From Dentipellis sp. KUC8613 (taxonomy: Eukaryota; Basidiomycota; Agaricomycetes; Russulales; Hericiaceae), in assembly GCA_002286715.1 (NCBI GenBank), contig NSJX01000003.1, positions 236,680 through 300,679 of the forward strand: a DNA stretch of 64,000 bases, written 5' to 3'. The position numbers and the translations under genes were made by a program. Shown here one piece after another: positions 9,775 through 58,925 of this stretch. The notes beneath the pieces are model-generated. The model was given only the letters and a program-made list of their open reading frames with translations. It made no database searches and had not been told where the DNA came from. Position 1 is the stretch's first letter, and every line of letters starts with the position of its first letter.

Positions 9775-11559
9775 ATGGGCTATATACCCCACCATGCACT
9801 CAATAACCTCAAAAACTACTCGTACAAAGGCGTCGACAAGTGCGTGCTGTATTCCATTCAAATTTGCCTCTCGAGCTCATCGCGTGTTCATAGATCGCTG
9901 TTGTCGAATTATGTTTTGAACCCGTACTGGACGTGGCTCGTCACGTTTTGGCCGACGTGGGTAGCACCAAACACGGTGCGCACGATAGAGATACAGGCTC
10001 TGCCATTTCATCTGATGTCTGATATAGATTACTTTGTCCGGTCTGGCAATCGTCATATTCAACTTCGGCACCATGTTGTACTACGACCCGACGTATCTGG
10101 CAGAGAAAGGCGGCGCAACGGGGCCTCCGCAATGGATTTATTTCACGTGCGTGTGCAATGGTGTTCTGTGTTCAAGCAATTCGCTCATCGAGCGTACAGT
10201 TGGGCATTAGGGCTGTTCCTATACCAGAGTTTCGATGCTATCGATGGGTGCGTTATCAATTCAACGATTCCAAAAGCCCTTGGCTGAAGGTTGTGACGTC
10301 AGGAAACAAGCGCGCCGGACTGGAATGGCAGGACCTCTGGGCGAGATGTTCGACCACGGTAAGTTCGAGAAGACGTCTAAATACGCTATATTCGCTCAAG
10401 CTTGGTAGGTTGCGATGCAATCAACACCACGGTACGTTTGCATGATCAGTTGGAACCGACCACAGCCTGATGAGACCACCAGTTGGAAGTCATCCTGGCG
10501 TCACAGGCGCTCAATCTGGGCCGTTCTTGGTGGACAGTCGCATCCCAGATCGCCACATTGGCTAACTTCTACTTGACAACTTGGGAAGAATATTACACCG
10601 GTAGGATCACAGCCTCGTAGACAGCCTGACTTGATCTGACAGAGATATAGGGCAACTCTTCCTCGGCCACTTCTCAGGTCCTGTCGAAGGTATCTTGCTC
10701 ATTGTCGGTATCTACACCATCACTGGATTTTATGGTATGTTTGGAGGTTTCCTGGTAAACATTGTTCTCACTGCCGCCAAGGCCCCACTTTCTGGGACCA
10801 GAAGATCCTTACTGTCACGAAGCTAGAGAATGTCGAAGCCATTGCCAAGCGTATACCTAATGTCGGATTAAACGAAGCTTTCATGGTCTTCGGAGCCTTT
10901 GGCTTGGCTCTCAACATTATTACGAGGTACTTCATATGTGTGTTCTCTTAGAAGGCGCCTGACCAAGGCATCGACAGCTACATCAACGTTTATACATCTC
11001 GTCGTGCCTCCGGCAAGTCCGTCCTGAGGCCACTGTTGTATCTGTTGCCGTTCCCTGTGTCTGCTCTCGCACAAGTCCTGTGGATGAACCACCCAAAGTT
11101 CTCGAACTCTGACATCTTGCACTCCCCTGTCTTTGTTCCATTCCTCTGCTCCTGGGGGCTCCAGTTTGCCCACCAGGTTGGGCGTATGATTCTCGCCCAT
11201 GTCACTGGCCAGTCTTTCCCTTGGTGGGATGCGATGTGGATCTTGAGCATTGTCGGCGCAGCCGATGCCAACTTGCCTTGGCTCATTGGCCGGTGAGTAT
11301 AGCTGGCCCCTGCCATACACTCACAAAACTCACACTGCGTGGACTTTGCAGTGCCCCCCTTATCCAGAACTCTCCAGAGAACACGGAAAAGTTCATTTAT
11401 GTGACGCTCGCAATCACGTTCCTCTCATATAGCCGCTTCGTTGTACTCGTCATCAACGATATCACAAACTACCTCGGCATCGCCTGTCTCACTGTCCGCA
11501 AGAAGGATGTTAGGGGCGTCTGGCGCCAGGCTGCTCCTTCGGACATCAAGAAAATTTAA
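9775..11559 (+). CDS. Choline/ethanolamine phosphotransferase
   Basis: Last step of the Kennedy pathway: transfers phosphocholine or phosphoethanolamine from its CDP form to diacylglycerol in ER/Golgi membranes. The N-terminus MGYIPHHALNNLKNYSYKGVD is typical of the family. After splicing, the CDP-alcohol signature is complete: DGKQARRTGMAGPLGEMFDHG plus CDA. That is D-G-x2-A-R-x8-G-x3-D-x3-D, so all catalytic acidic residues are present. The coding parts lie at about 10225-10250, 10307-10357 and 10409-10431. Several hydrophobic segments follow (TWLVTFWPTWVAPN, GPVEGILLIVGIYTITGFYG, FIYVTLAITFLSYSRFVVLV). The last exon ends SDIKKI. The sequence does not tell whether choline or ethanolamine is preferred, so no CPT1/EPT1 symbol is given. 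Confidence 0.93.
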
Positions 11560-11804
11560 TGAGCTTCAGGATTCCGATGGATACCCATGATACATATCCT
11601 CACAATCTAGAAATATCCACGCTCTAGAATAGAAATAACGTATGATAGTGTCTAGTTCACAGTGACATATATACACCATTATTTAGTACGCACTGCGTGG
11701 ATGTCGAGATGCTGCTCGAGCGATATGGACGCGGCTATATCAGATCGGAGTTTTCGGGGTCCTTTACCTCGATTATCGAGTCACGAGAAATTATCGAAAG
11801 CTGA

Positions 11805-14002
11805 ATGCTTTACCTGGTATCTCGTCTCGCGCGCACTTCCCATCGATTCCCTCCAGCTCGCCTTGTACATAGCACCCTGAGAGCGAGGAACATGGCCACC
11901 GTCCAATCTCTGACCAAAGAGGTCGAAGAGCAATCGAAACTGTACAACGAACTTAGGCTGAAGAACGCAGAGGCCGCAGAACTAGATGCCGTACGCAAAC
12001 GCCTGGGCGAACTGAAGAAATCACTCGCAATTGCAAACAACGGAGCTGGCGGGAGCAAGGAGGGAGGGAAGAAGAAGGAACGTCTTCTGCTGAAGACAGC
12101 GAAGGTGCGTGCGTCCTACGCGACCCTCTTGAGCGCGTCTCATGCTCATCCAGGGCTTGTGCACTTCTTCAGGGAACCCGCGACTATGGCCCGGGAGAGA
12201 TGTTTTGTCGCGAGCATGTTGAGCGCATTGTCAAAGAGTGCTTCGTTCTCTACGGCGGGTGCGCTCTGGATACCCCCGTCTTCGAGCGCAAGGATATTCT
12301 GGCTGGAAAATACGGGGAGGACGCGAAACTCATCTTTGATCTTGAAGACCAAGGCGGAGAACAGCTCGCTCTGCGATACGACCATACCGTTCCGCTTGCG
12401 AGATACCTGGCCATGGGTGGTGCTACGAATACGCAGTCGAAACTCTGGCAGGTTGGCAAGGTGTACCGTCGGGATAACCCCGTCATGTCGAAAGGACGTA
12501 TGCGTGAATTCTCCCAGGCTGTACGTATTTGTATGCGATGATCTCTGTTCGTAAACTGACGACAGCGCTTCAGGATTTTGATATTTCAGGCGCCTGGGAC
12601 ACCATGATTCCCGACGCTGAAATCATCAGCTTGCTCTGTACTATTCTGTCAAGACTAGACGTTGGCGAATTCACCGTCAAGGTGAGATCTATAACCCTTG
12701 ACGCGGTATATGTACTGACTCGTGACAGCTTAACCACCGAAAACTCCTAGATGGTATCTTCGAAGTGTGCGGAGTACCTGCCGAGAAGATTCGGCCTATC
12801 TCGTCTGCGGTTGACAAGCTCGACAAGGTCAGAATATCCAAGCACGAATAGCTACCACAACTCACATGTACAATTCATGCAGCTTCCTTGGGCAGAGGTC
12901 AAGAAGGAGATGACAGAAGAGAAGGGCCTTGATCCAGCTTCTGCTGACAAAATTGGCGAATATGTCAAGCACAAAGGTATGGCAAGAACCTCATCTGCGA
13001 TGAACTTGTTCCTCTAAACAAACCTCAGGCGGGCGCCAGCTCGTCTCGCAGCTCCTGGAAGACGAGATACTGACCGCGAATGCAAGTGCAAAGCAGGGTC
13101 TCGACGAGATGGTCATCCTATTTGACTTCCTCGACGCGTACAAAATCTCCGACAAAGTAGGCGCCATTGCAGCGATGACCGTACTCATCTGACCGTGTTC
13201 TCAGATTTCTTTCGATCTTTCGCTTGCTCGAGGTCTCGACTACTATACCGGTATTATTTATGAGGCCATCGTAGAGGCTTCCGCACCCCCAGGCTTCAAG
13301 CAAGCCTCTACCCTCGCTGCCACGGATGCACCTTCCACCACCCCACCACCCAAAAAGAAGGCTACCAAGAAGGCCACCGGCGCCGAGGAAGATGAAGAGG
13401 TTGACGAATCTCAAGTCGGTGTCGGTTCCATCGCGGCTGGTGGCAGATACGACAACCTTGTGGCTATGTTCACAAGTGCGGCGGCGGGTGAACCGAAGAA
13501 GGGTCTGCCCTGCGTTGGTGTCAGCATAGGGCTTGACCGTATCTTCGCTATCGTGTGGTCGAAGTGGATTGAGCGTGGTATGAGGAGCAAGGAGACTATG
13601 GCGTACGTGATGGCCGCGGGTGACGGCCTGTTGACAGAGCGGATGGGCCTTGTGCAGGAGCTGCGGGAAGCAGGGATCAGGGTTTGTCGATTATTGTGCT
13701 CTGGGCGACGATAATTCTGACAGCATTCGCAGACGGACTTCCTGGCAAAGAAGAAGCCCAAGCTGCCTGCACAATTCGCGGCTGGTGAGCGTGACGAGGT
13801 GCCTTTCGCGATCATCCTTGGCGGCGACGAGCTGAAGGCCGGCCTCGTCACCGTCAAGGAGCAGAAATGGGAACTAGTCAACGGAAAAAAGACGAAGGTT
13901 GAGTCGGCGGACAAGGGCACACAGGTCAAGCGGGCCGAACTAGTGCAGTGGTTAAAGGACACTACGACATTCAAAGAGTGGTCCAGCGGCCGGTGGGTAT
14001 AA
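11805..14002 (+). CDS. HTS1: Histidyl-tRNA synthetase, mitochondrial and cytosolic forms
   Basis: Class II synthetase charging tRNA-His. Two in-frame ATGs exist. The one at 11805 adds 29 residues rich in Arg/Ser with no acidic residue ([20 protein letters not shown]), a mitochondrial presequence. The one at 11892 starts [20 protein letters not shown], a WHEP-like helical extension. Motif 1/2 regions read [34 protein letters not shown] and [20 protein letters not shown]; the HisRS-specific motif is [12 protein letters not shown], followed by [14 protein letters not shown] and [10 protein letters not shown]. The C-terminal anticodon-binding part includes [21 protein letters not shown] Pro/Lys/Glu-rich insert sits before motif 3 (near 13320-13410). 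The His in RYDHTVP replaces the Leu usual in eukaryotic enzymes. About eight introns. One gene serving both compartments is known for yeast HTS1. Confidence 0.95.
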
Positions 14003-42121: not shown

Positions 42122-42127
42122 AGGATC
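42122..42127. repeat. Target-site duplication AGGATC, left copy
   Basis: Direct 6-bp repeat immediately outside the left terminal inverted repeat. The identical hexamer sits immediately outside the right terminus at 56358-56363. A 4-6 bp duplication is what retroviral-type (rve) integrases make; Mavericks/Polintons make 6 bp. Confidence 0.75.
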
Positions 42128-42220
42128 TATGGCGGTCGAAACGTTGCAAAATTCATTCCGCGCGCGACGGAGATTTCCGCACGCGCGACAAACTACTTTT
42201 CCGCGCGCGACAAACCACTT
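42128..42220 (+). repeat. Left terminal inverted repeat
   Basis: Begins TATGGCGGTCGAAACGTTGC and continues AAAATTCATTCCGCGCGCGA, CGGAGATTTCCGCACGCGCG, ACAAACT. It matches the reverse complement of the right end over about 90 bp: 26 identical bases, two mismatches, then about 40 identical bases, after which the match decays. Confidence 0.8.
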
Positions 42221-42362
42221 TTCCGCACGCGACAAACACCATTTCCGCGCACACGCAGAATACAAAACGTACACGACAGCTAGTTTTTTCCGCACACGAC
42301 AAATACTGTTTTCCGCGCACGACGAAATGCCTCTTCCCTCTTCCGCACACGACAAACGAGTC
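42154..42362 (+). repeat. Subterminal tandem 22-24 bp motifs, left end
   Basis: About eight imperfect units of the form TTTCCGCGC(A/G)CGACAAAC plus 4-6 variable bases run inward from the terminus. The fifth unit is expanded by an insertion. Units are not a constant multiple of three, and every frame stays open across them because the motif lacks stops, so this is not a coding repeat. Such arrays often bind the transposase. Confidence 0.7.
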
Positions 42363-43726
42363 TTTATCAGGTATACAATTATCACTGATCTAGTTGAGCC
42401 ATGCAGTACAATATCATTGATTTCACTCATAAATCATTAGGAGATTCAGGAGTGCTGCAGGAAGAGTCGGCCTCGGCGGTAGCGGCTATGGATTACATAG
42501 AACAAGCAGCATGTCATGTCGTCTCGAGCTGGACCTTGTAAGCTACCAGCAGGTCATGTAGTAAACATCAAGTGGCCACTGGCAGTGGCAGGGCAGTCAG
42601 CCCGCGCTCCTGGTCGTCATCGCGCAGAACATCATGCGGACATTCATCCCACCCATCACGCACCTCGCTCAAGCTGCCCCTTGGGCTCGCCTCGCACGTC
42701 TCGAAGTTCTACGACCTGGTATGCAACGAGGCCTTCACAGGTCATGATGATGGGGCCAGAGGCGTTGGCAAAGGCAGAACTCATGAAGCGCACAGCAGTG
42801 CAACTAGGGAAATGGCGAAGGTGTCTGTGCACGAGATAAGGGTAGGGCCGAGACACAAGATCAGGATGTCGCGGTATTACAGATTGACAAGGGGCAGGAT
42901 GTGAACAAACAGGAAAATGGCAAGGGTGGTTAAGAGTTGAAACGAGGACAAGGGGAGCGATGGCAAGATCCTGCGAGGCCGCCACAAGCCACAGCGCCCG
43001 AAGTTTCTAGCACTGCTGCAGAATGAGGGGGGGATTGTCGGTGCACGGCGATGTGAGCATGTGTCTTGAGCGGTCATAAAGGTAAACTGCGTGGCTGTTG
43101 GTTGACAATAGGGCTCGAGGCGATTCAGTATACTCACTAGCTTGTGGTCAAGTCCCTGAATACTACTCCCACCGCAGCTGCTTGGCCCTATCCACCCTGG
43201 CCGGCTGCTAGACTGGTGGCGACGTGGCTACAGGTATGCTTTTTCCGGGGCGATGCAGTCTTTGACGCAGGTGCGAGCACTGGTCAGTGCCGACTGCCCT
43301 AAGCACACAAACTGGTGAGCCCTGCTCCGAATGTAGACACATATTACTACCTACCTCAAGCCCTTAGGCAGCAGAGACGACCTCGCCTAGTGTGAGGTAG
43401 CCAAAACGAAGGAGATGGGAGCAACCTCAAAACAACCTCACGATGATGAAGCTGGGGAGAGTGAGGAGTGTGGATTCAGGTCCTCTGCGGGGCATCTGTG
43501 CCGTCCACAAGAGCTTTGCTGCCTTAGCGACCGTGCGTCTGCAGGCGGCGGCGACGATGTAGCGGGAGGGAAAGGGTGGAGTTGGCAAAGCGCCGAGGCG
43601 AGCTGTGTCACAATGCAGTGACACCTGTGACATCGTGGCGGTGGCGGTAGCTTTGTCGCCTTCAATGCAGTACTTAATTATAACATACATCTATCGCAGA
43701 TTATAGTAGATTCTAAATTGAGAGGC
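42363..43726. other. Element interior, no gene supported
   Basis: 1.36 kb between the left subterminal array and the integrase stop. Short frames on both strands, such as a plus-strand run LKLPLGLASHVSKFYDLVC near 42675-42730, could be remnants of a decayed gene, but no family is recognisable. Confidence 0.35.
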
Positions 43727-45774
43727 TTATAGCATGTCGAAGTCGAATACAACCTGTTCCAACAACCTGATGGCCCGGCACCAAGCCACTGCACGGGGAT
43801 ACCAAAGCTCGCGGGGGAGAGGGATTACGAGTCGCCTTGTTCCTCGAGATCCATACGGAATCTCGCCCGTAGATGGATACCCGCCTTCATCCCATTCGCT
43901 ATCTAATAGCATCATGTCCTGAGGCAAAATTCCATTATTGCAAACCTCGTCGTAAGCATCCCAGAACAGTTGCTGCAGTTCGGGATTTGGGAATGGGTTT
44001 CTATGATCGGCCACCGGAATTGGGTCATGGCGAATGTTGGGTTCTTGGTCAGCTGCTACAGCATCCTCGAGCTCCGAGATTGGTATTGGATCAAGCTCAG
44101 CCTCATCTCCGGGTTCGCTGTGATCCGCTCCTTCATCGGACGAATGTCCAGCACCAGTCTGTCCATGGCTTCGAACATGGACATTACCTTCAGTGCCATA
44201 ATAGCGCTGGAGGAGATCTGGATGCACACCAGACAGCTCGTCCCTGTAGTCATTATATACACCGTGCTCGACTGCGGATAGAAATCGCATGTCCTGCATC
44301 GTAAAGATAGATAAAATGAGTCTAAATCGAGGCTAGACATGGTGTCAAGGCTCGCACCTCCGGTGTTTGATCGTGGGTTCCGCTGACCGCGTGCTGATTC
44401 CAATGTGCCCGGAAAGTCTCGCAGTCTAGATTAATTTCTCCAAGAAACAAGGAATGAAGGAGCCAGAGATGATGTGGGTTCCCTGGATCCAGACCATGCA
44501 GGTGCTCAAGGCGAAGAAAGAATGCCCGCCAGTAGCGAAAGAACTGGGCCCCAACATCACCCCACAGGCGTTCGATTCGCTGATTATGTGTCGATCTATA
44601 AGGCTGTTAGTAACAGATATATTGCCGGTCTGATGATAAGTAATGACGCACGATCCCCATAAGAATGAACCGCGGTTCGGTCCTCGGTTCACAATCATCC
44701 ACACGGCTGCTTGAATATTCTCGCCTCCCCGATCCCCCCTCAATCGCCAGGGTGCTCCATACGTAGAGACTGCATCCAAAAACAGTTCTAGTACAGTAGC
44801 TGCCTGATTGTTGGTACTTGCGCGCAGGCCCGTGACCTTCCGAGTCATTGGTGTGTTCAGTCATAACTTATGGATTCCGACACGTTACTCACCATTCGAT
44901 CGAAACCATCTATGAACCCATGAATCACTAATCCATACCTGATCCCTTTGTGGTGTCCATCGGTGTGCCAGAGATCGCCTGAACGCCGGGTTCTGTAAAT
45001 CTGACGCGATATCATTGCCTGGCGACGGAGAGTGGTCCCAAGTCCATCGACACGCTGAATAGCTCCCCGTACACGGTCCTTCTGAACACGCAAACCATCT
45101 GATCGAAGATATGCTTGAATAAATCGCAGACCCGAAGTAGGTTTCTTAACTTTGAAAGCACGGATCATGCTGTCGAGTTCACCGTCTGTTATCTCTGAGA
45201 ACCTGCGCTGAAGGCCATTCTGCTTCAGTGCACGCCACAGTGTGACACGATCCATTCCTAGCGCCTTTGCGAGGCGCTTATGCGTTATCTTCCGGCGTGG
45301 AGACACGGCATCTGCAAGCCAGTCCTTGTTGATGACTTTCCGAGGCCGTCCACGCTGCCCATTACGTTCGAGTTGGACAGGTGCTACAAAATTTACCTGC
45401 CCGGCAGCGGAGGTGTTGCTACATAACATGCTTAGTAGTCGCAGATCGACATTGGCCGGTAGCACTCACATATGTTGGCGTTCTTGTGCGGCATCACGTA
45501 ACTTCGTCATAGTGTACAGCAAGGCTGCAGCACATGCCTCAGTCCAAGCCACATCTCCTATTTCTTGATCCAATGCTAGCAAGATCGGCAGCATCTGCTG
45601 CTCCAGAGTTTCTGATGCCGTTCGGAGCTGTATCGAATCTGAGTCCTCCAGGCGAAGTAGTCGTGCTGCGTGCCGGTGAGCATTGGATAAGATGACATGA
45701 GCACTGCGGATATCATCACTCCAGCCTTGAGGATTATTGGGTAGAGCAGGGAAGATATGAGATAAGTCTGGCAT
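43727..45774 (-). CDS. DDE integrase-core transposase (rve type) with introns
   Basis: Start at 45774 (MPDLSHIFPALPNNPQGWSD). An N-terminal helical region is joined by an in-phase intron (about 45470-45425) to NTSAAGQVNFVAPVQLERNG. A basic RGRPRKVINKDW motif follows, then a helix-turn-helix KITHKRLAKALGMDRVTLWR. The catalytic core is complete after splicing. First Asp: GDLWHTDGHHKGIRYGLVIH (codon 44959-44961). Second Asp: LRGDRGGENIQAAVWM (44732-44734). Glu: STHNQRIERLWGDVGAQF (44571-44573, just after an intron). GLDPGNPHHLWLLHSLF and SAVEHGVYNDYRDELSGVHP are family-typical downstream segments. An acidic C-terminus ends VVFDFDML. No stop or frameshift was found across the four or so introns, so it may be functional. 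Similar integrase-core proteins are numerous in Agaricomycetes. Confidence 0.85.
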
Positions 45775-45965
45775 CTTGTGAGGGGCCGTTATGTTCGATG
45801 AAGCATGGTGACTAGCAGGAGGCGGGAGGTGAGAGGCGCGTCACCCACATTCGCCGCGGCCCGGCAGCCATTCCTATGCACTGCGCAAACTCTTTATAAA
45901 TGCTGTAGAACAGACAGCCAGTCATTTCCTCCCGCTGCCCTCAGAAGCTGTCCCGCACTTTCGAC
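45775..45965. promoter_or_regulatory. Divergent promoter, integrase and BTB genes
   Basis: 191 bp between divergent ATGs. TTTATAAA at 45893-45900 lies about 66 bp upstream of the BTB start and is a plausible TATA element. Confidence 0.45.
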
Positions 45966-46977
45966 ATGTCTGCATCTCTGGGAGCGGCAGCTCTCATTAC
46001 ATTCCGCCCATCTTTGGATTCTCTAACTTGCGGCGGTGCGGCGCAGCACTCCCCACGATACTACGACCCAACTGGCTCGGTCATAATCCGTGTAAGCTAT
46101 ATCCCATATTCCAGACTGTTTATTCACTGCAGAAAATACTCAATTAGGTCGAGGACACCCTCTACCGGCTGTCTGACCACCTCATGCAGATTCGGTCAAA
46201 GGTCTTTGAGCATATGTTTTCGTTACACCCGACCCCAGACCCTGAAGGCACCACCGACAGCAACCCAGTCTTCCTTGGCAGCACTCTCGCAAGTGAATTT
46301 GATGCATTGGTTGAGTTTCTCTTCTACCCGTGAGTGCCTCGTAACAGCTGCAGAACTGAGATAACTCACCCCGCAAGAGCAGACGTGTTCGAAAGCAGGA
46401 TATGAAAACACTATGTGGAATTCTCCACCTTTCGTCGCGCTACCTAATTGAGGACGGCCGTGAATACGCGATTGAGAAGCTACAGACCCACCCAGAGTGG
46501 AACGCGGCTCACCAGCTTGGACTTGGGGTAGCACACCAGGTTCGCGACTGGATAGAGCCGGCATTTCGAGAGCTGGTGGCGCGTCCCATCCATGCCATCA
46601 CGCCACAAGAGATTACGGGGATTGGCTTTCCCACCTTTTACCAGCTCGTTCTGGTAAAAGAGAAGATCAGCCAGCATCGCCATGCCCTTGCTTACTTCGA
46701 TGTTCCCTTCGAACCTGGACTCACCTGCAGAACCAGGATCCAGTGTCAGCGAGAGTGGGCAAAGGTGTGGTACGGAACATTCGCAAAGATGCTGATCCAC
46801 CCGGAAACGCCGAAATCCGATGCGACTGTTCTCAAGGCGATCGACCAATCAGCAGGACATATCGAAGGGGTATGTATACCATGCCATGTGAGTACAACTT
46901 CGATGATCAAGGGTTCGGGTGCTTTGGCGAAGGAGGAGGCAATGATCGAGGAAGGGCTGGGAGTTGTGCTGCAGTAG
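45966..46977 (+). CDS. BTB/POZ-domain protein
   Basis: Start at 45966 (MSASLGAAALITFRPSLDSL). The BTB core is split by an intron with a GTAAGC donor: RYYDPTGSVIIR, then VEDTLYRLSDHLMQIRSKVF and EHMFSLHPTPDPEGTTDSNP with VFLGSTLASEFDALVEFLFY. After a second intron come ILHLSSRYLIEDGREYAIEK and the long helical C-terminal region (HQLGLGVAHQVRDWIEPAFR, AITPQEITGIGFPTFYQLVL). It ends EEGLGVVLQ. BTB domains dimerise and recruit partners such as cullin-3 or chromatin factors. The family is hugely expanded in Agaricomycetes, so presence alone is not specific. Here it lies inside the putative transposon and faces away from the integrase gene. No frameshift is seen. Confidence 0.8.
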
Positions 46978-47732
46978 TAAGGCTGGGTACTTAGGGGCTG
47001 GTACTGTACTTACTAGCTCTGCGATCTGACCAGGATGTCGGCATAAAATGAGTGTCATTTTTCAAGTAAGGGCCCCTTCGGCGGGCACGGTTTTGCATTC
47101 CGTGGCCCCAGAGGTGCCGACTTCGCGCGTCACGGTACTGGGCCCCCGCGCCCTGCATGTATGTGCCGGAACAGAAACCTGCGGTACAATTTTTCGGGAA
47201 AACTGGTGCTGCTGCGCCAGATGCAGAGATGTCTACCTGCCTCCCAGTCACCCATGCCGCTCGCCGGCCGGTCTTGAAGCCACGCAGCATGCCCGTATTG
47301 CCGACGACCGATGCTCGCCCCGCCCGCGGCGCGATGGAGGTACCCGAACACGAGCTGGGAATCATGATCCTTCTTCTGTGACAGCGCCAGGAGCGGTGGG
47401 CGGCTCATGTGGCTGCGAGAGGGTGTCCAGCCGCGGGGAGAAGAGAGTGCAGTGCCTGGAGGGGAGCAGAGAGCAGAGCGAGATGGCTGAAGGCGCGACC
47501 GCAGTGTGCTGTCACATGGGAAGACCAGCATTCACTATGGAGACTACATGTCCCATACCTGAAGCTGGGACACTACTGTGTCGTCCAACCATGCATGAGC
47601 AGAAACGGCACAAAACCTGTGTAGGACGAAGACACGTAAAGTCCTAAATTCAAACTCCGTCTAAATTTACTTAGCGCAGCAAAACCCCATGGAATTAATA
47701 TTCATTAAGTATATAGCATCTAAGTTATAGAG
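46978..47732. other. Element interior, no gene supported
   Basis: 755 bp. A plus-strand frame of 199 codons (47048-47647) and minus-strand frames of 124-133 codons overlap here, but their composition is Cys/Arg/Gly-rich without a recognisable domain. Confidence 0.35.
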
Positions 47733-47832
47733 GATGGCGACAGTAGGAGTCGAACCAAAGACCTTATGTATGTGGGTGCCTGCCGATGTTTCACAGGATC
47801 AGGGAAGCACATACCATTAGGCCACTAGGGCT
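47733..47832 (-). pseudogene. tRNA-like remnant with pol III A and B boxes
   Basis: On the minus strand, TGGCCTAATGGTA (A box, 47813-47825) is followed about 56 bases later by GGTTCGACTCC (B box, 47746-47756) and then TACTGTCGCC, a tRNA 3'-acceptor-like end. The 5' acceptor half does not pair with that end and the T stem is mismatched, so it is not a working tRNA as written. It may be a decayed tRNA gene or a tRNA-derived SINE head. Confidence 0.35.
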
Positions 47833-47952
47833 TTGCTATGTATGATGTGTATTAAATATAAGGAGTACTTCATTTCGGACGATCGTACAAAATAAATGTG
47901 TCGAGATGCGGGAGAGGAGGCAGATGCAGAGGATTGTGGCAGGACCACCGGG

Positions 47953-48854
47953 CTACATAGAGTAGATCGTGTAAGCCTGCTGGGTGAGGGCCTCGTGATG
48001 CCGCCCCATTGCCAGCTGGCCGGGCGTCCCCTTCGCCACCCGGGAAGGATGCGCCAGGTTCGCCTCAGTCGGCGATGTGATGTTGAACCTGCTTGAAATC
48101 CTCGGCCTCGAGCCAGAAGGACAGGTTCTCGTGGCAGAAGTTGCCGCGGAGGAACTCACAGAAGAGACTCCGCGGCTGAGGGCTGATGATGAAGCGCACG
48201 GGCCTGTCGCCGTCCGACTTGCCGCCATCCTCGACGAGCAGGCGCAGGCCGACCGCGTCGCCGTGCTCCGTGGCGTCGTCCCCGAAGGCATCGAAGAGCA
48301 TCGTGGTCTGCGCGCGGTAGAGCGAGGTGCGCGGCGAGCGGCACGCGTGCCCAAGCCCCGCAGGCCCCGGTGTGCCCGGCCACCCGTCCAGCGACGGCCG
48401 GCTGCCCTGCAGCAAGAGCCGCAGGTTCATCACACTTCCGTCGAGTGCGGTGTGCCCATTCGCGAGCACGCCGCCGGGCTTGCACGAGAGCTCGAGCAGG
48501 TGGATCCCGAGGAAGGTCACGACGAAGCCGGCAGTGAGCAAGATGGTGTCTGTAGGGCTGTCGGTGCTGAATCCTTGGGAGAGGGTGAGGGAGGCGATGA
48601 TTGCTGCTGCTGAGAAGAGGACAGAGTACCCCAAGCTCCTCTACCCCGTCTTCACACGCTTTGCACAGTTCCGACTCTGGACCCCCCGTCAGCGTGGGTG
48701 CGGGCGCGCAGACGGTGAACACGTCAGACAGACTCTCTGCGCTGCGGCGCTTCACGACAGAGAAGCCCGTGGATGCGTATGCTGTGCCGAGCCACGCGCT
48801 GTCCCTGTCATGCTGCCTGTCGTGCCCGTGGCCAGTGTTCGTCCGCCCTGTCAT
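47953..48854 (-). pseudogene. Broken RGS-domain membrane protein gene
   Basis: RGS proteins speed GTP hydrolysis by G-alpha subunits. Reading down the minus strand, an N-terminal block (FSVVKRRSAESLSDVFTVCA, ELCKACEDGVEEL) is followed in a different frame (shift near 48632) by membrane segments GYSVLFSAAAIIASLTLSQG and ILLTAGFVVTFLGIHLLELS. The RGS core begins RSLFCEFLRGNFCHENLSFW and LEAEDFK. At about 48090 the frame shifts again: RFNITSPTEANLAHPS and AMGRHHEALTQQAYTIYSM continue the domain in another frame and hit a stop at 47953, before the second half of an RGS domain. Two shifts plus truncation make this a pseudogene. An unseen intron could explain one break, not both. It lies inside the element. 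Confidence 0.65.
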
Positions 48855-50888
48855 CAGTCAGAGCTGGTGAATCTTGGTGTCGCCGTTTGAGGCACCTGCC
48901 GCGGTATCCTCAGGCGCTCCCCGAGCAGCAGGCACCGTTGCCCGGGATCCACGAGCTGTGGTCACCCTATGCAGATCTGTTCTCTTTCGCGCGCACCCTC
49001 GCGGCACACGGCGGGGAGCTTGTGGTGCTCGAGTCCTTCCTAAGCAAGATGCGCGGGTTCACTGGCGCGCGCGCAGGTCCTGCAGACAGTGTAGAACCTC
49101 AGCTCGCAATCCCCGTACTCACAGGGTCGCTTCGGCGAGCCTGTGTCATATTCCGGGCAGGCCGGGATGCTCGCACATGCGACTCGCGAGGGCGTCGAAA
49201 GTGCGCGGCTCGAGGTCGCTGCAGAGAGCGCGCTCGGGCCTGTGCCTGCGCAGCAGGAGATGATCTGCCGCACGCACAGTATGGGTTTGGGAGCAGCTGT
49301 CCGGAAAGACGCGGGTTCAGGTGCGAGGCAGATTGTGACAGGCGACATCGTCATCGCGGGGGCGGACATTCGAGCTCATTGTGCTGCTTATAGGTCTGCA
49401 TATTATTGCCGCGCCCTGTGTGACCGCCCGCTGTGGGATCGAGAGGACGGCAGCTTGGGAACACTGTGGGCGCCGCATGGATTGATGCTTGAGAGCTGGT
49501 GCTTGATACCGTCTGTCGACGATCGCTCGGCCCTGGTCACGCTGGCAGCCGCACTGTTCGGGAGTCGAGTGTTCCCTGAGCGGACTCCCAGCAAGCCGCA
49601 CAGATGCCCCTGCTGGTGATCCTATAGATAGCCCTCACAGCACCACAGAAACCACTGGTTCTCTGCAGACGAAGGTCAGCGGAGAATCTTCTGGAAACGA
49701 AAGTAAAGACGCACACTTATGGGAACATTGCCGCCTGGTGCAGTTCCGCGGACGGCAAAAATGATCTTGGGGCCCTGGTTCTTCGTCTTATCGCTGGCAA
49801 GAGTAACCGGGCTGAAGTGCGCAGACTGGGCTGCAATTCCCGCCGCCTCTTCTCTGCTGACCACCAGTGTGAAATCACAGAGCCACTGCTCGAGCGTCGA
49901 GAAGAGGCCCTCGAGATCCATGCCCACAGGCGCGACTCCGAGATCCGCACACGCGAGCGCGAGGACACGCTGTGCACGCGCCCGGCCTGCCTGCACCGTC
50001 GCTCGCTACTCCGCGGACTCTGTCCCCCCGCCGTCACAGCAGTGCCCCATCGAGAGGAAGGGCTGGTGCCGCCGCTTGGACATGCCAGTCATTGCGCTCG
50101 TGGGCGGGGGTGCGGGGGAGGCGGGTCCTGGGGTGTATGGCGCAGGTATGGGCATTGTGGGCAGGAGGGCTGCAGGGCTCGAGAGGCTGGGCAGGGAAAA
50201 CTATAGCGTAGCAAATGTGGGCGTGACAACTCGCGAGGGTTCTCTTGAATCCCCCGCAATTTGATCGGGAGAATTTGAGTGATGCTAGGTTGAGCGCAGC
50301 CTTGTCGCTGACAGGAAGAAAATTAGGAAGTAAAGATCATGGAAAAGATGGGGGGCGTACGTTGTGAGCGAATAAGGGGAAACTGGCTTTCAGGAAGGGA
50401 TATTCACGCTTCGTGCTCTCCACCACGTGCGGTGAAGGTGCAGCCGGATCAGCGGCGGGTGTGGAAGGCATGGTGGAGGTCGGAGGAGAAGGATGGGGAA
50501 GCTAGGGGAGAAAAGGGACATTAGATTCGCATCCTGGCCGGCCTCTCGCTCACATTTCTCACCAGCGCACCAGACCCAGCTCGTGAACAGATCCATACGA
50601 TGTGCTAGACACACCTGCATCGGAGGGTAGTGCCCTTCTCTGTGATCTGCTGTCTCCACTCCTCCTCTGGCAATGTTCGCACATCCTGTGTGTTTCTCAG
50701 AAAAGTTCGTTGAGATGGTATTTGCCATTGGGCGAGTCAAACTGATACCTGCGAGCGAGGTGAGAAGGACGATTCTGACGACAGATGCATGTCAGTTGGA
50801 CTGTGACATGTGACATGTGACACTTCATCTCGCGGGGGCGGAACCTGCGTCATCGTTCGTTACTGCCTTCTTCGTTTTGTACCACATC
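48855..50888. other. GC-rich element interior without a supported gene
   Basis: About 2 kb. Several overlapping frames of 100-206 codons occur on both strands. A plus-strand run (ELWSPYADLFSFARTLAAHG, near 48955-49015) and a minus-strand run (GLFSTLEQWLCDFTLVVSRE, near 49840-49900) look protein-like but neither belongs to a family I recognise, and frames change within each. This may be further decayed passenger genes. A TGTGACA triplet repeat lies at 50802-50822. Confidence 0.35.
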
Positions 50889-52677
50889 ATGGGGAAGAAA
50901 GTGAAGCAAAATCTCGGTGAGTCTCCTTCAAAAATGTGACACTTATACTCATGTATTGGTCAACAGAAGCTTTCTTTGGAGATCCCGAGAACCGAGAATT
51001 ACTGGGAAGCAAAGCCTGCACGCTCGGCGATCCTGCCACTTTGCTGGCCTTAGAGCACCGCAAGGTTTCTATGGGTCTTGAAGGGCTTTCGGCAAGTCAT
51101 GTTATCTCTCAACTTTCCGCCAGATCTACACGGTACCTTTCTTCCAGAACGATCACCTTATGAGCGCGCTCGGCTGTCTGGCAGTACACAATCCCCTACT
51201 AAAGACAGTTACTGCTGCGCGCTATACTCACAAGAGAGAGAGGAGACGAGAGCTCCTTGTCAATACACCTTCAGCGAGTCACCATGAGAAACGAGCCTTT
51301 GTCTGCCTACTTCTCTGAATACGCCCACCGTATGCTGATCACATGTCTGTAGGTTCGCTTGATTGGAATCAAACAAAAATCCCGCCGTACCCTCAATGAC
51401 TTTCTCTCCGGGAAGTACGGTCCAGTCGAGCTTCATGTCGTCGAGCCATGCAAGCCTGCTGTCAAGCGCGGCAGTAATCTCTACGAAGATCCGCTAACAG
51501 TCCCACCTGCCGACTTCAGTGCCTGTGTTGTGAACGAAGTCACCGGATATACCGTGATTTCTGAAGAAATACCCAAGTCAAGGATTTACATGTCGAAGAA
51601 GCCTGATGGAGGTAGTTACCTCCAAATTTTGTTCGTCCCTCTATACTAACCTTATTCGAATAGGGTACGAGTACGAGGCAGTTATCCTTGATAACCTCGG
51701 AGGCCTCGTCGATGGCGAAGAGCTCGTTAATGCCATACTATATTGGTGGTGTGATGTGATCGCATATGCAAGTTACGATCGACGGGATGTCCGAGTAAGT
51801 ACTGTGTTTTATATTAGCCAGACTCAAGCTGATAGAGCGACCTATCAAAGCCGAACAACGATGGTACTCTCGTTCAATTGGGATGGAATGCAGGTCCTCG
51901 GCATGCTCGTGTCTGGGGGCTAGCTAAAAGTTATACCAAGAGCTACGATCAGCCGACGCGCGAAGCAAAAGATCACGATGCTGTCGCTGCCCTTTCTCTT
52001 TTTTGGAGGTTTCTTGAGGCATGTATGCCACAGGAGTTGATTGATCCAGTAAGCAGCGAATTGAAAGCAGCTGGGATGCCAAAATTGGCCACTCGAGACA
52101 TCGAGGCTGGTGCGTCACCATCCGTACTTCACCCGATATCGCATAACTCAATCAAATCGACAACACAATCAGGTAGTGGCTGGCAGTTTCGGCTGAACAA
52201 TAAGTTCTACAGATTCTCACTTGCCGAGCGGGCTCCTCCAGAAGGATACATGGGCCAGGGATATACAGCGTGAGTTTTCATCAGCATCAGAGCTCTCGCT
52301 GCAAAGGCTCATTACTGAGCTGTTATAGGCCCGCTCACACAGATCTCATATATACGCCAATGGCGTTCTTTGTCATAGCCGGAATCGAATCGATTCCTCT
52401 CGAAACAGCCACAGCAGAGACCCGTTCCAGACGTTCAGTAGCGCAGAACAAGCCCCACATTTCCGAACACGGTGGGAGTTTTGTGGATTTGAACCTTCGT
52501 ATCGTTGTGCGACCTGCTGTAGGAAGGCTCGTTGCCTTTAATCCTCGGCATCTTCATGGTACTACAAAATTGTTCGGCCGAACAATCCGTGGCATGAGTA
52601 TCACGTTTTCCCAAAGGGTCCTCGATGCTTATCGTAATGTCAAGGAAAATGCCCGTACGGAGGCATTCACACCATAG
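50889..52677 (+). CDS. 2-oxoglutarate/Fe(II) oxygenase-like protein
   Basis: Start at 50889 (MGKKVKQNLEAFFGDPENRE across an intron). Segments follow: STLxx-free core IYTVPFFQNDHLMSALGCLA, VRLIGIKQKSRRTLNDFLSG, YEYEAVILDNLGGLVDGEEL, then PNNDGTLVQLGWNAGPRHAR and the catalytic part. After splicing, GYTAPAHTDLIYTPMAFFVI gives an H-x-D pair (His 52336-52338, Asp 52342-52344). GGSFVDLNLRIVVRPAVGRL and VAFNPRHLHGTTKLFGRTIR give distal His candidates (52549, 52555) and Arg, followed by GMSITFSQRVLDAY. That H-x-D...H...R order fits a double-stranded beta-helix dioxygenase. One intron (51089-51120) appears to use a GC donor. The exon around 51240-51355 is unresolved. Similarity to fungal TET/JBP proteins is a hypothesis only; substrate is unknown. 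Confidence 0.65.
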
Positions 52678-53960
52678 TGAGGGATAATTCTTGTACGCTA
52701 CATGAGATGCCTGATACCCGTAGACTCCTACATTCCTGTCGCATTTCTAGTTCTAGCATTACTACAAACACGTTCATGTTGCAGAGTAGCATCTCTTGAT
52801 CTCCTTATTCATGCAGAACATGTTGTCCTTGTGCAGGCCGAGCAGGCGCAGCGTACCTGCTGATGCATCGCGAGCAGCACATCGCCGTCCTCATCCCACG
52901 ACGAGGAAGACAATGCGCCACCGCGCAGCACGCCTGATCCTCTTCGATGTACTGTTCTTGTAGGCGACTCGGAGCAAGACGGTGTCGATGCGGAACTGGC
53001 GTGAGCTTTGTTTGGTTGGCAGGAGGCCAGCCTCTACGCTCGGAGGAGCCGCGTTCGGTCCCAGAGCTGCTGCAGCACAGTAAGTGGCTATAGTCATACG
53101 GAAAAATACAAACTTCTGCTTAGTCCGCTCGTGCTTCCTGCAGTCGCACCTCAAACTCACAGGATTGCTTCCTCCATCCCGCATACGGCCTTCTCCACCC
53201 CGGCCCGCATCGTCAGCCACACGGTCGGCAGCACCCTCGCTGTGGTAGAGCAGCATTTCCTCATTCTTGCGACCAGCATACCGCCTGAGACCTTGTGGCT
53301 CTTCCTCGTCGGGCTTGTTGCCGGGCGATGGGTCGCACAGGGGGATGATAGCAGGCCTGGGACCGTAAAAGTATATGCTCATGCCCGTCTTGACAGGGCT
53401 GCAGGAGAGCATGTCACTGCTCGTGTGTGGGGGGCGGAGGTGAAGGTGAAGGTGAAGATGTCGGCCTGGAAGTGCACGCGGGAGGATTCGAGCTTGGCAA
53501 GGATCGCGTCGGCTGTGTCGCGGTTGTGTCCAGCGCTACTACGCACGGGAATAGCCATGGGGAACGTGTCACAAGCCGTCCTGCAACATACATACCTCGA
53601 GTCGGCATTCCTCCCAGCACAACCTTATCAACTGCTTCAGCACCACTGTCGCCATCATGTTTATTATGTTTTCTTTATCAAAAGCGGGCATTTTTGCTCT
53701 GCTATCTAGTCTCCTATTTTTTATGTAACGGTACGTGCCCGTCCACGGGATTATGGGCAGCGGGCAGTGTGATCATTTCGAGGTGCGTCATCCAAAAGCC
53801 TCTTCTGTGAAGAAGTGAATGTAACAATTATCGGAGGTTTGTTGGTGGAGGGCGCTGAACAGTGTACTGCATCCATCCGCTCCTCCAATCCTTTCGCCGC
53901 CCCTCCCCAGCATCTATTGCATCGACAGTCGCGATCTATCCTCCACATCTCATACCCTCT
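52678..53960. other. Element interior, no gene supported
   Basis: 1.28 kb. A minus-strand frame of 173 codons (53412-52891) and a plus-strand frame of 233 codons (53008-53709) overlap, both without a recognisable domain. A minus-strand run TARVLPTVWLTMRAGVEKAV near 53240-53190 may be a remnant of a decayed gene. Confidence 0.35.
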
Positions 53961-55744
53961 ATGCAGTCCTGCATCGGCAACGCTCCTGACGGCACGAAGT
54001 GCACTTGTCTGCGCTACAAACCACGGCCTGATCGACTGGCTGGCGAATCCGACGATTGTGTCAACTGTGGGCATTGGGACACATCGCACCCAGAGTCTCC
54101 AGTGTCTACCCTGCCCTCACAACCGGCCCGCCAGTCAAACATCGCGTCGCTCATTAGCAACTATCGCAGTATCATGAGAGACAGTCCGACACCTGGTCCA
54201 TCTGCATCTTCAACTGCCATAGTGTCGAAGGCTTCGAAGGGTAGCGCTATCCAGGAAGCTTTTAGTGGTTTCCGCCCCAAGGATCGGGGCTCAGCCGCGG
54301 CACCGACGCGTGGGTTGAAGGTATGCTTATTGTCCTTCTAGTCCATCAGAATCACTGAAACAGCCATCAAGTCACGGAAGCCGGTGGAAACAGAGGCAAG
54401 AGCCTTGAAGCGAGAAGCAGTAGGGATGGTAGTATTTGTTCCATGCGGGCTGGATGTACGTATTCTAAAAATTATCATAGACTGTTCGTCTGAGTCTCAT
54501 CTCGTGTTTAGGAGAATGATCAGCTTATGTCGTCCAATGCACCGAATGCGGCCAAAATCCAGGACCTCAAGCGTAGAAAGCTGGTTGTGGAATCTACCGA
54601 TGACCGGCCGATCCGCTTCGACAGGTCATGGTCAAACGACGCTGTCGAAGATTACTTACGGTCTCTGTTCCCGACTTTATTCACATATCTTGACCGAAGG
54701 CAACTTAGTTCCCCTCGCTGGGTTCTTCTCGCTAAGGGAGAAAGACGGCTGTCGATTGCAGAGGTGGCTGATTCTGGCCCGTCTAGCCAGGACATCCTCA
54801 GTCACCGATACCCTCAAGGGCGCACGTGGAGGGAGCAACGTGTCTGGATCAGTGAGCTTATCTCTGCCCTTTTGTCTGTTGTTCTGACTAGAATTTTCTG
54901 TTAGCTTCACGGTGTGAAATCCCTGAAGGCGACTACGAGGCATGGACACCTACGCAGACCACCGGACCGGAGAGCTCGGACTCGAAGTTTCGTTCATTTT
55001 CCCGAGCCCGCCAGTATCAAGATGACAGCAGTAACTCGTCTGGGAGTTCTGCAACAGAGACTGAGGAGTTTCTGGAGAAGGGGAAAGGGAAGGCGAAGGC
55101 GAAAGCCGAGCCTCCCAGGCCCAAACGTGGTGAGTCGCTCTCTATGCTGGTACCCGGTCATCACTGACCAGTTTTATCAGAATACCATTTTCGTTCCAGA
55201 ACGAAGCGCGCACGGAGCCCGATCGAGCTATCAGATGGTTCTGAGAGCGACGGCTGGACATTGAAATCCAAAGGAAGGGAACTGCGCAGCAAGAAGCGCA
55301 AAGGTACTGTGCCCAGTCCTTTCAATGTCCATACACTGTCGATGCTCAGCTGACGATGTCCACTCAGTTACCCTCGGTGCCGCAACGGAGAGCTTTGCGA
55401 GCCTCGATCTCAGTGCCGCAGATAACTGTGAGTGTCTTGCACCGTTGTATGCAGGAGGCTGTGCTCACATCGGCACGTCTGCAGCACGTCCTGATCCCGG
55501 TTACGACAGTGACTGTATCCAGCTACCAAGCCCTGGCGCAGTGGTTTCGCAACTTGCTGGCCCATCTCATCACACATCAAATGCTGATACCCCGGCGATC
55601 TCAGGTCACGAGGTTTTTCCAGTCAGTGACGATGACGAACCAGCTAGCTTTGCAGGAGATCATGGCTCTGCTTCACATTCGTCATGGATGAAAGACCTCG
55701 GATTTGATATTGCCCCTCCTCAGAAGAATCCCTGGGCTCGGTAG
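53961..55744 (+). CDS. Cys-rich N-terminus protein of unknown function
   Basis: Start at 53961. The first ~40 residues hold a metal-binding-like pattern: MQSCIGNAPDGTKCTCLRYK, then DCVNCGHWDTSHP (C-x9-C-x-C ... C-x2-C-x-H). Later exons carry LKREAVGMVVFVPCGLD, ENDQLMSSNAPNAAKIQDLK with RRKLVVESTDDRPIRFDRSW, and NDAVEDYLRSLFPTLFTYLD, the most protein-like part. A basic, serine-rich region follows (EYHFRSRTKRARSPIELSDG), and the end is SSWMKDLGFDIAPPQKNPWA plus R. About six introns. I do not recognise the family. Similar Cys-rich starts occur on many Agaricomycete lineage-specific proteins, from memory. It is the last gene before the right end of the element. Confidence 0.6.
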
Positions 55745-56189
55745 TCGCTGTTTGACCAGCCGCTTCTGCGAGTTTTCCTCTATCTTTACTTCTCGGATAG
55801 CTTACATGCACATTCACTGCATTCTTAGTCTCCTTTATATCGTCGCTTTGAACCTTTGCACCATGCTTTCTATTAGATAATCACCCGTATTCATTCACTG
55901 TAGATGACCTTGCTAATAATCCCGCGGCCTCGCGATACCTCGAACAGGTTCATATTCTCCGTGGCAGATTCAACTCTGCTTCCTAATCACTACTAGCCTT
56001 TAATTACATACAGCCTATACTCCCTCCTACGAAAGCATAGTGCTACTACTCCCTCCTACATTACTGTCCTGGAGATCTTCTAATAGACATTTCGAGGCCT
56101 GGAGCCATTTTTATGAGCTTTCATTCCATTTGAAGCAGTGTGAGATTATCATGTGGCTTGAAGTATTTCTCCTACAGAAAACCATCTTA
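55745..56189. other. Element interior, no gene supported
   Basis: 445 bp between the Cys-rich gene and the right subterminal array. AT-richer than the neighbours; no coding sequence is seen. Confidence 0.4.
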
Positions 56190-56331
56190 TCCACAAAGGA
56201 CATCTTCGTGCATAGAAAAAGATGTCTGTCGCGCGCAGAAAAAGAATTTAATCGCGCGGGGAAATGGTGTTTGTCGTGCGCGGAAAAAGCAGTTTGTCGC
56301 GCGTGCGGAAATCTCCGTCGCGCGCGGAAAT
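56190..56331 (-). repeat. Subterminal tandem 22-24 bp motifs, right end
   Basis: Read on the minus strand from the terminus inward there are five to six imperfect units of TTTCCGCGC(A/G)CGACAAAC type. Units become more diverged with distance from the end (CCCCGCGCGATTAAATT, TCTGCGCGCGACAGACA, TCTATGCACGAAGATG). Confidence 0.7.
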
Positions 56332-56357
56332 AATTTTGCAACGTTTCGACCGCCATA
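56265..56357 (-). repeat. Right terminal inverted repeat
   Basis: The reverse complement begins TATGGCGGTCGAAACGTTGC, AAAATTATTTCCGCGCGCGA, CGGAGATTTCCGCACGCGCG, ACAAACT, matching the left end at 42128. Its outer edge abuts AGGATC. Confidence 0.8.
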
Positions 56358-56363
56358 AGGATC
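56358..56363. repeat. Target-site duplication AGGATC, right copy
   Basis: Identical to the hexamer at 42122-42127 and in the same orientation, directly outside the right terminal repeat. Confidence 0.75.
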
Positions 56364-56608: not shown

Positions 56609-57057
56609 TCAGGCCTTACCCTTGCCCTTCAAGTAGTCGAGCTCCTCCTGTCGTATCTGAGAATCCTGCTTCGCACCGCATGAAGGCTCGTTGCCGTGAC
56701 TGCGCGCTGCTTCCAAAGGTTCCTCAACGAATTTTTTCTCGCTCCATCTCTTCTTCCCAGCCTCGGCAGCGGTCTCAACCTTCTGCCTGAGCCGGGCGTC
56801 ATCGCTGTGACGAAGGGCAATTCAGTGATGAGTCCAGGGGGGAAGTGCGTACAACTTACTTGTTGTTCAGGATCTCAGGAGTATTGCCGTGGGCAGTCGG
56901 TGTCTCGAATGGAGCTTGAATTGCGCCCTTAGAGGTCCTGAAGGAAAGGCGTGAACAATAGAGCATGACAATGTCGATACGGCCAAACATACTTCTGATC
57001 ACCGTCATTGTAGACTTGGGGATTACCTACCGAGGATTGCATGGAACTTCCAGACAT
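56609..57057 (-). CDS. Small conserved unknown protein
   Basis: Three exons give about 115 aa in one frame. The start at 57057 reads MSGSSMQSSVGNPQVYNDGD then QK. An intron (donor GTATGT) joins to TSKGAIQAPFETPTAHGNTP with EILNN, and a second intron joins to DDARLRQKVETAAEAGKKRW, SEKKFVEEPLEAARSHGNEP and QIRQEELDYLKGKGKA, with TGA at 56609. All junctions have GT-AG signals and restore phase. The composition is hydrophilic and charged with no signal or membrane segment, probably a small cytosolic or nuclear helical protein. No family name can be given with confidence. It is the first host gene to the right of the mobile element. Confidence 0.65.
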
Positions 57058-58925
57058 CTAAGAGGTGTGAGGAGGAGGTAGTGTTGAATTTCTGTTTTTG
57101 AAAGGCGTCGAGATTGTGGATGAGAAATGAGCCTGAATGTCGACGGAATATATATGCAAAGCGTGAGTGAACAGATCGGAACGTGACGTCAATCCCGATG
57201 TATATATGCGTCGTCCTTGCCACGGCTAGCTCGATGCTTCCGACGCCATTCGCCTCCACTGGCTGGATCCAGTTCACCACGACATCCTTGACGCTGTGTT
57301 GCCTCTCCTTCGGCGGTGTTACGTTCCCGCGACGCTCGGACGCGGACGGTGATGACAGTTCAAGGTGAATAGGGGCCATATACCGTCAACACCACCCATT
57401 CTCACGTGCCGCCGCGAACAACGAGGAAGAGAAGGCAAGCCATGTAAAGCACTTCGAGATTGTCCTGACAGAGGAAGGGAAGTAGACATTGGTGCACGGC
57501 CGCGAAAGTGCACGAATTCAACGACGTCGAACGGATGGCGGTTCTGTCGCTATGCACAGGTAATTACATCCCTTACCAGTTCCAAGCATAGATCTGACAG
57601 AAGCATCGGTGTTCTCCAAATCACCATTGCATTTAGAAAGCGACAGAACCGTATCTACAACGACGCACCACGTCTCCAAAAGTGTGTACGAACTCCCGGC
57701 TCTGCCTTTCGCAATCCAACTGCGCGGTTGGCGTGACGCACAACAGATACGCCGAGCACTAAGACATCCAGTTGCTGTCCGCCCTGCTTTGGCACAGACC
57801 AGTCGTGGACGAGACGTGGTCTGTAATTTGACTTGAGGTGCGTTTGGAGAAGCTGGGAGGCGCCGAAAGTAAGTTTTTATAGGTCCCGGGCATTGCCGGA
57901 AGCTGACTGGCTCGACTGCCTTCCCTACGAGTTAGGCCCTGAAATGACATTCCCTCGATGGTGGCACAGTATATCTACTTCCATTATTCAAGGCATCGAT
58001 AGATTCGCTCAGGCTGATACCAATGTTGACACTTTCATTCCGTTCAAGCCATCGAATGGGGTGGACCAAAGTGGGCTGGCCTGGTGGCCAGGGAATCGAT
58101 TCTGCGTTCAGTCGCAGCTCGCTTTGCAGATGATTTGCGAGAACCGCTGACTTGCAGGCCGCGGAAACCGCCTGACCGGTCCAACCAGGTCGCTGCAACA
58201 GCCTGCAAGCATGTCATCACGGAGTATCATGGAATCGTGTAACCGTGCCTCAGCTGGCCCTGCGAGGGCTTGCTTCCTGCAGGATGCCTGTAGAGAGCAT
58301 GCAAACAGCACACGAATTTCCTCCCAAGACGAGGAAGAAGTCGAGACCTGCCACGCCAAGCACAGCATGTCAAAACGCAAAAACGGCTTCGGGTTCATCT
58401 GCCCTTCAAATGAAAGCCATCGACTTCTTCTCGACGCCGAACAAAAAAGGAAGTTCTCTCAGTGTGCTGCATCTAATTATACGTCGTTTGACCTGGGCCA
58501 CACTGGAAGACCCGGCGACAGCGAGAAATGCCGCACTAACTGCGTTCGCACATGGGCGACAAAAGACCGAGGAAGAGCAGATGGTCTGGGGCTCGCGGAC
58601 CTGGGCTGAGTCAGCAAACGCGAAGCGGCAGAGGACGGCAGGACGCAATCGGGCGCTACGCGACGCGTTACGGACCTGCGACGGACCATGATGGAGACAT
58701 CAGTCGGTCAGACAGCTGGACACACGCTCTTCCAGACCGTTCGGTCAGTTTTCCTCCTTGTCCCCGCCCCGGCCAACCTCGCCCCGTCGCTCTTTCAACC
58801 CCGCCCTTTTCTTCAGCCACTCGTGCAGGTTTCCTCTTCTCCACACGCCAGTCCTTGCTCTGCTTTCGTTCCCTTGATTATTGGCCGTGAGGTCCCTCCC
58901 TCTACTCTAATAATCTAGCTCTAGC
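57058..58925. other. Long intergenic region, no gene supported
   Basis: 1.87 kb. Frames of up to 148 codons on the plus strand (58245-58691) and 118 codons on the minus strand (57379-57023) have no recognisable domain and no convincing splicing. The 3' part holds the promoter of the deacetylase gene. Confidence 0.4.

Follow-up and report, generated by a model that had tools for sequence, protein, structure and literature searches.

The described systems closest to the locus considered here are DNA transposons of the IS3EU superfamily, which have TA..TA ends and usually 6-base-pair (bp) target-site duplications (PMC10045372). In those of Pucciniales and Tuber that carry TET/JBP genes, the dioxygenase gene is flanked on one side by the transposase gene and on the other by an alpha-kinase gene of opposite orientation, and in the rust fungi such elements end in TAYGG..CCRTA (PMC12730594). 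Papers cited here by PMC number are represented by excerpts, and statements about them are limited to these. The subject of this report is a 14,230-bp element at positions 42128-56357 of a 64-kb stretch of DNA (the window) on contig C95 of the genome of Dentipellis sp. KUC8613 (Russulales, Agaricomycetes), an assembly of 34.1 Mb in 171 contigs that are cited below as C plus a number. On balance we think it probable that this is a cut-and-paste transposon matching IS3EU, that its predicted Fe(II)/2-oxoglutarate (2OG) dioxygenase serves to shield it from methylation silencing, and that the pieces of six other loci found within it were copied through template switching in gap repair.

In its ends (as stated for the rusts), its 6-bp duplication and its gene order and orientation, the element is like the TET/JBP-carrying IS3EU elements of Pucciniales and Tuber. 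However, its host belongs to Russulales, for which the excerpts of PMC12730594 report only Kyakuja, and they contain no TET/JBP-carrying IS3EU element for Agaricomycetes as a whole. Moreover, the dioxygenase has an HxD motif (HTD) where the PE type of fungal TET/JBP has HxE, and it shows no detectable kinship with AG-type fragments, no alpha-kinase gene was found in the element, and there is an extra gene of 300 amino acids (aa) as well as a patchwork of copied pieces (PMC12730594). Styx, an IS3EU relative of Zymoseptoria, shares the IS3EU-type transposase, the 6-bp duplications and the presence of acquired coding sequences, but it is about 7.9 kb long and multicopy, and neither a dioxygenase nor a multi-locus patchwork is described for it in the excerpts (PMC10853768). 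The Pack-TYPE elements of plants are likewise DNA transposons whose inverted ends enclose fragments of host genes; they are by definition non-autonomous, whereas the Dentipellis element has its own stop-free transposase gene and so lies outside that definition (PMC8903248). Finally, the hAT transduplication of histone H3 in Dothideomycetes is a case of a fungal DNA transposon capturing host gene sequence, but there, in Mycosphaerellaceae, it was a single gene, taken from a transcript, that underwent amplification; the Dentipellis element represents six loci, keeps an intron in one piece and shows no amplification (PMC3538342, PMC6710886). The open-licence literature, as far as its excerpts reach, yielded no IS3EU element with gene fragments, and no IS3EU case stood among the titles and abstract beginnings on Pack-type capture or transduplication in fungi, Helitron and hAT being among those treated; on Dentipellis and transposable elements it gave only a review on receptors. 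The element thus fits a known superfamily and, judged from its sequence, adds two unusual features, namely a dioxygenase without a place among the described types, and a patchwork drawn from several loci in a transposon that has retained a transposase gene of its own. It brings together transposons with anti-silencing enzymes and transposons that shuffle host genes, which are usually separate subjects of study.

Ends, target-site duplication and transposase

The inverted ends of the element are identical over 26 bp and 91% identical over about 105 bp. Their terminal 20-mer occurs exactly twice in the window, in inverted orientation (42128-42147 on the plus strand and 56338-56357 on the minus strand); with up to three mismatches allowed, the average over 100 dinucleotide shuffles was 0.01 matches, and no shuffle had two. 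When the window was scanned without bias for exact 6-bp direct repeats adjoining a 20-bp inverted repeat (up to four mismatches, 300-25,000 bp apart), six matches came up, the best being the element's own pair and the other five lying within the same terminal repeat. An earlier sequence-only reading of this DNA had pointed to inverted ends with 26 identical bases and to the hexamer AGGATC directly outside both, and the sequence, the shuffles and the scan all confirm this. The terminal sequences are TATGGCGG..CCGCCATA, that is TA..TA, and fit TAYGG..CCRTA. The site would also permit an 8-bp duplication, AGGATCTA, with unequal ends; the flanks of a second element on C89 (below) do not allow 8 bp, which supports the 6-bp duplication. 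Beyond the 26 identical bases, both ends are composed of units of 22-23 bp like TTTCCGCGCGCGACAAAC. They are also rich in CpG: the observed/expected ratios of the left 250 bp and the right 137 bp (Table 1) compare with 0.89 in the interior and 0.95 and 1.03 in the 5-kb flanks, and a sliding scan of the window counts 22 and 21 CpG per 130 bp at the two ends.

Between these ends, the transposase matches the Pfam family rva_4 with an E-value (E) of 2e-55, covering family positions 1-183 of 194. Its acidic residues D255, D312 and E347 have the spacing D-56-D-34-E, and the best bacterial family in NCBIfam is IS3 (1e-10), with IS481 next (6e-9). With an IS3/IS481-related DDE transposase, TA..TA ends and 6-bp duplications (AGGATC here, ACTCGA on C89), the element fits the IS3EU/GingerRoot superfamily, an assignment made from ends, duplication and domain matches by comparison with published descriptions. 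The statement of the sequence-only reading that no named superfamily was known with such termini and content therefore gives way; its view of the element as a single DNA transposon that combines an integrase of the rve type and a 6-bp duplication with an oxygenase-like and a Cys-rich gene is supported. The gene models, four in number, all have GT..AG introns and read without stops.

Several other placements were considered and rejected. IS481EU is defined by TNT..AYA or TGT..ACA ends and by duplications of about 4, 15 or 25 bp, while the duplications reported are of 4 bp for Ginger1, of 4 or 5 bp for Ginger2 and of 3-6 bp for retroviral integrases (PMC10045372). For the Ginger and retroviral integrases there is, in addition, no integrase zinc-binding family among the nine Pfam matches of the transposase, and IS3 is the top bacterial family. 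KDZ and Plavaka transposases are likewise absent from those nine matches.

The genome contains one further copy of the element's end, a solitary one at C112:183709-183811 (90% identity over 104 bases), for which no partner was found in the surrounding 90 kb. Exons of rva_4 type occur at three loci (seven exon matches), these being the window element, C133 and C89. The C89 locus (205867-220280) is a different element of 14,414 bp, with an rva_4 transposase inside, the duplication ACTCGA and ends, TATGGAGGGCCTGGCCGGACAAAA / TTTGGAGGGCCTGGCCGGACAAAA, that differ from those of the window element; this pair was one of two matches when the same scan was run over 40 kb. Comparison of the C89 element with the dioxygenase gave nothing better than E 3.9, and its six other reading frames had no Pfam match over cut-off. 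The further pairs of ends with 6-bp duplications that the sequence-only reading had called for are thus present at the level of the superfamily, in the C89 element, but not in the element's own family, where the orphan end on C112 is all that was found. The third rva_4 transposase locus is at C133:12689-13589; positions 1-12154 of that contig read N, masking its left side.

It could be argued that the ends delimit a non-autonomous element moved by another transposase, with the transposase gene inside as passive cargo. The single complete copy, and ends unlike those of the C89 element, would be in keeping with this. Nevertheless, the introns of the gene between the ends are of the GT..AG kind, its model is free of stops, its acidic triad is complete, and the ends themselves are as reported for IS3EU (PMC10045372, PMC12730594), so that we hold such a passive role to be very unlikely.

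A patchwork of copied genomic pieces

When the element was searched against its own genome (E 1e-149 to 1e-6 on other contigs) and then re-aligned to the source stretches, 15 blocks, amounting to 3,066 of its 14,230 bp, were found to match six loci on five other contigs at 72-88% identity. One of them, C1:362518-362629 (75%), comes from the local re-alignment alone and not from the genome-wide search; the count leaves aside C57:2528-2599, C90:128612-128691, C71:7672-7764 (75%, overlapping a stretch assigned to C80) and the C112 end. Most of the blocks form a cluster at 47954-50516, where 2,458 of the 2,563 bp could be assigned to sources. Within the cluster, the RGS gene on C1 has contributed five collinear blocks, which are broken up by stretches from C142, from C80 near 1.37 Mb and, inverted, from C80 near 832 kb. 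In the sources, reading frames match RGS (C1), the NIPA family of magnesium transporters (C142) and SLA1 plus SH3 (C123); those of C117 and of both C80 loci, which are putative genes at most, have no matches. The junctions are sharp: the sources overlap by 2, 6 and 8 bp at three of the 11 within the cluster, and at the other eight they are separated by 1 to 60 unassigned bases. In one block the intron of the donor RGS gene is retained (Table 1), which implies that there DNA, and not a transcript, was copied. The same source stretches had no match at E 1e-4 in the C89 element or in the window flanks.

Two other explanations were rejected. Drift between paralogues does not account for C1 blocks that lie 13 and 4 bases apart at the source while the element holds some 600 bases from other loci in each of the two gaps, and a chimeric assembly does not account for blocks that are merely 72-88% identical to their sources. 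The sequence-only reading had taken the RGS sequence for a decayed gene carried as cargo; it is instead one part of the 15-block, six-locus patchwork.

Might the patchwork owe its presence to an insertion within the IS3EU element, by a Helitron or some other separate element that captures genes? Helitrons do capture gene pieces in fungi (PMC4289320). Yet an end of the hairpin-plus-CTRRT kind is absent from both strands of 46981-50890, a scan of 45900-53960 for inverted repeats gave only two weak pairs (2 mismatches in 14), neither of which bounds the patchwork, and copied pieces also lie outside the cluster, at 42601-42700 and 53015-53522. We consider a nested element of this sort improbable and prefer capture by the IS3EU element itself.

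A short dispersed stretch at 47747-47829 of the window also matches the C57 and C90 stretches left out of the count; it looks tRNA-like by eye, but scans with ARAGORN (bacterial code) and Rfam, which had no matches, do not support this.

The predicted dioxygenase

In its own genome, all seven matches of the dioxygenase gene are the window locus itself. Seven homologues among 7,998 scored candidates pass E 1e-3; the six that have a species name are all from Agaricomycetes (Russulales, Agaricales and Atheliales), in the genera Auriscalpium, Stereum, Piloderma, Tricholoma, Roridomyces and Pholiota. A profile search for further dioxygenases matched four of 7,997 scored candidates, all of them homologues already known. 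The H-x-D motif is present in the window protein and in five of the seven homologues (one of the others is without that stretch and one is cut short), and in six of the seven the distal His stands within HG[TS][TS]. An H-x-D/E ... H iron site is therefore present, but such a site is common to other Fe(II)/2OG oxygenases and hence non-specific for TET/JBP.

For comparison, the iron ligands of CcTet are His326, Asp328 and His376, followed by Arg385 and Phe391 (PMC11040006). The window protein and three of the six homologues that cover the site have an Arg 11 residues past the distal His, and the spacing of CcTet, an Arg and then a Phe six residues on, recurs in the window protein. The two His residues, on the other hand, lie 73 apart in the window protein; in CcTet, as in four Tet_JBP fragments from the same genome, the distance is 50. 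Where CcTet has Asp337 the window protein has a Phe (as counted from the motif, without alignment), which speaks weakly against the AG type. The dioxygenase is not placed in any described TET/JBP type, and the label "TET-like" is a provisional one, suggested by a motif common to other Fe(II)/2OG oxygenases and by the position of the gene within the element.

Wider searches added little. The protein has no match in Pfam or NCBIfam, and PDB searches with its sequence and with its alignment gave one chance match each. A fold search with the model of the first homologue returned 50 matches, none at E 0.001 or better. In viral contigs, 16 stretches fitted the pattern and none was confirmed, and the phage records contained none. 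PF20515 was uninformative, having no matches anywhere in the genome of the host.

Proposed mechanism and its standing

The reading that we prefer draws on the paired ends with their duplication, on the stop-free transposase with its D, D and E, on the C89 element and on the 15 blocks with their junctions and intron. The transposase would cut and paste the element, joining its ends to target positions staggered by 6 bp, and the iterated units at either end suggest themselves as the sites that it would bind. The predicted dioxygenase would oxidise methylcytosine at the CpG-rich ends and so keep the element active. A methylation system in this host is made plausible by five exon matches to DNA_methylase, all over cut-off, together with nine Tet_JBP matches (C171, C46, C24, C84, C1 twice, C151, C116 and C102), of which seven are over the family cut-off. 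Break or gap repair that copies from unrelated places is a route known from the gene-capturing elements of plants. Here, breaks or excision gaps within the element may repeatedly have been filled with fragments of unrelated host genes; we infer repeated capture because the RGS stretch is interrupted by three other loci and the identities span 72 to 88%, and not the single event that the sequence-only reading had supposed to bring in all of the cargo. Both the demethylation of the ends and the capture by gap repair are thus proposals about what the element may do.

A number of results weigh against this reading. There is no second complete copy of the element's family in the genome, and its mobility is therefore a prediction from its sequence. 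The NCBIfam matches to IS3 and IS481 are both under the curated cut-offs, which were set for bacterial members. The CpG density of the ends is among the highest in the window but not unique, one stretch elsewhere in the window having 25 CpG per 130 bp and three having 21, and overlap between sources is limited to the three junctions mentioned above. The Cys-rich gene, which occupies the place of the published alpha-kinase gene, is dissimilar to the two alpha-kinase stretches of the genome. As to the dioxygenase, the Arg expected after the distal His is missing from three of the six homologues that cover the site, none of the eight aligned members has a Tet_JBP match at E up to 10, a profile comparison (hhalign) with the four Tet_JBP fragments of the same genome stayed at chance level, and structure models of two homologues are unusable, with a mean predicted local distance difference test score (pLDDT) of 47 and 42. 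The last three of these results, as well as the wider His-His spacing, speak for an alternative in which the element is an IS3EU transposon but its dioxygenase, whether a common Fe(II)/2OG oxygenase or some other enzyme, does not act on DNA and came along as cargo. However, dioxygenases of the TET/JBP kind are reported at the same position in IS3EU elements (PMC12730594), and the H-x-D, the distal His and the Arg-Phe spacing of CcTet all recur; the cargo alternative is a real but minority possibility in our judgement.

A bolder form of the reading we prefer would make the element an autonomous IS3EU gene-patchwork factory, in which repair repeatedly splices in unlinked host DNA while a fourth, hitherto undescribed type of transposon-borne TET-like dioxygenase, spread through Agaricomycetes, keeps CpG-island ends unmethylated; this we regard as rather doubtful. 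If the dioxygenase does act on 5-methylcytosine, the known kinds of transposon-borne TET-like enzymes would be widened. Similarly, the assembly of pieces from six loci by a DDE transposon of a mushroom-forming fungus would, if real, be a Pack-like source of new gene combinations in fungi, beyond Helitrons. With a single, well-bounded copy whose genes read through, both ideas are directly testable.

Other genes and the insertion site

The coordinates of the element's features are collected in Table 1. The 300-aa gene had been labelled BTB in the sequence-only reading, a label that found no Pfam support at E up to 5; elsewhere in the genome this gene has four weak exon matches of 25-38% identity. 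All five own-genome matches of the Cys-rich gene of 483 aa are the window locus, a protein search matched it only to itself (one of 7,997 scored candidates), and a Pfam scan detected no alpha-kinase domain in it. It may resemble the N-terminus of mushroom alpha-kinase proteins, although the search gave this assumption no support.

Table 1. Features of the Dentipellis element and its boundaries, in window coordinates
Feature	Position	Strand	Basis
Target-site duplication AGGATC, left	42122..42127	.	Sequence and unbiased scan
Left end: inverted repeat and iterated 22-23-bp units like TTTCCGCGCGCGACAAAC	42128..42377	+	CpG observed/expected 2.17
Copied block from C117:413383-413487, 83% identity	42601..42700	+	Genome search, re-alignment
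Transposase, 5 exons, 606 aa, rva_4	43727..45774	-	GT..AG gene model, no stops; Pfam; NCBIfam IS3
300-aa gene, 3 exons, no stops	45966..46977	+	GT..AG model; earlier BTB label unconfirmed
Patchwork of 12 blocks: C1 RGS gene (5), C142 (2), C80 near 1.37 Mb (3), C80 near 832 kb (2)	47954..50516	+	
One RGS block, from C1:362634-363011, keeping a 53- or 59-bp intron of the RGS gene	49510..49885	+	
Predicted Fe(II)/2OG dioxygenase, 8 exons, 456 aa, H344-T-D346 ... H417	50889..52677	+	Gene model without stops, homologues, motif
Two copied blocks from C123 (SLA1 and SH3 domain gene), 72% identity	53015..53522	+	
483-aa gene, 7 exons, N-terminal Cys cluster (C4, C14, C16, C33, C36)	53961..55744	+	Model without stops; part annotated DENSPDRAFT_877658
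Right end: inverted repeat and iterated units	56221..56357	-	CpG observed/expected 2.28
Target-site duplication AGGATC, right	56358..56363	.	Sequence and unbiased scan

Beyond the right boundary, a small open frame on the minus strand occupies 56612-57060; by eye, the right end of the element lies about 250 bp past its stop, so that the insertion appears to be intergenic.

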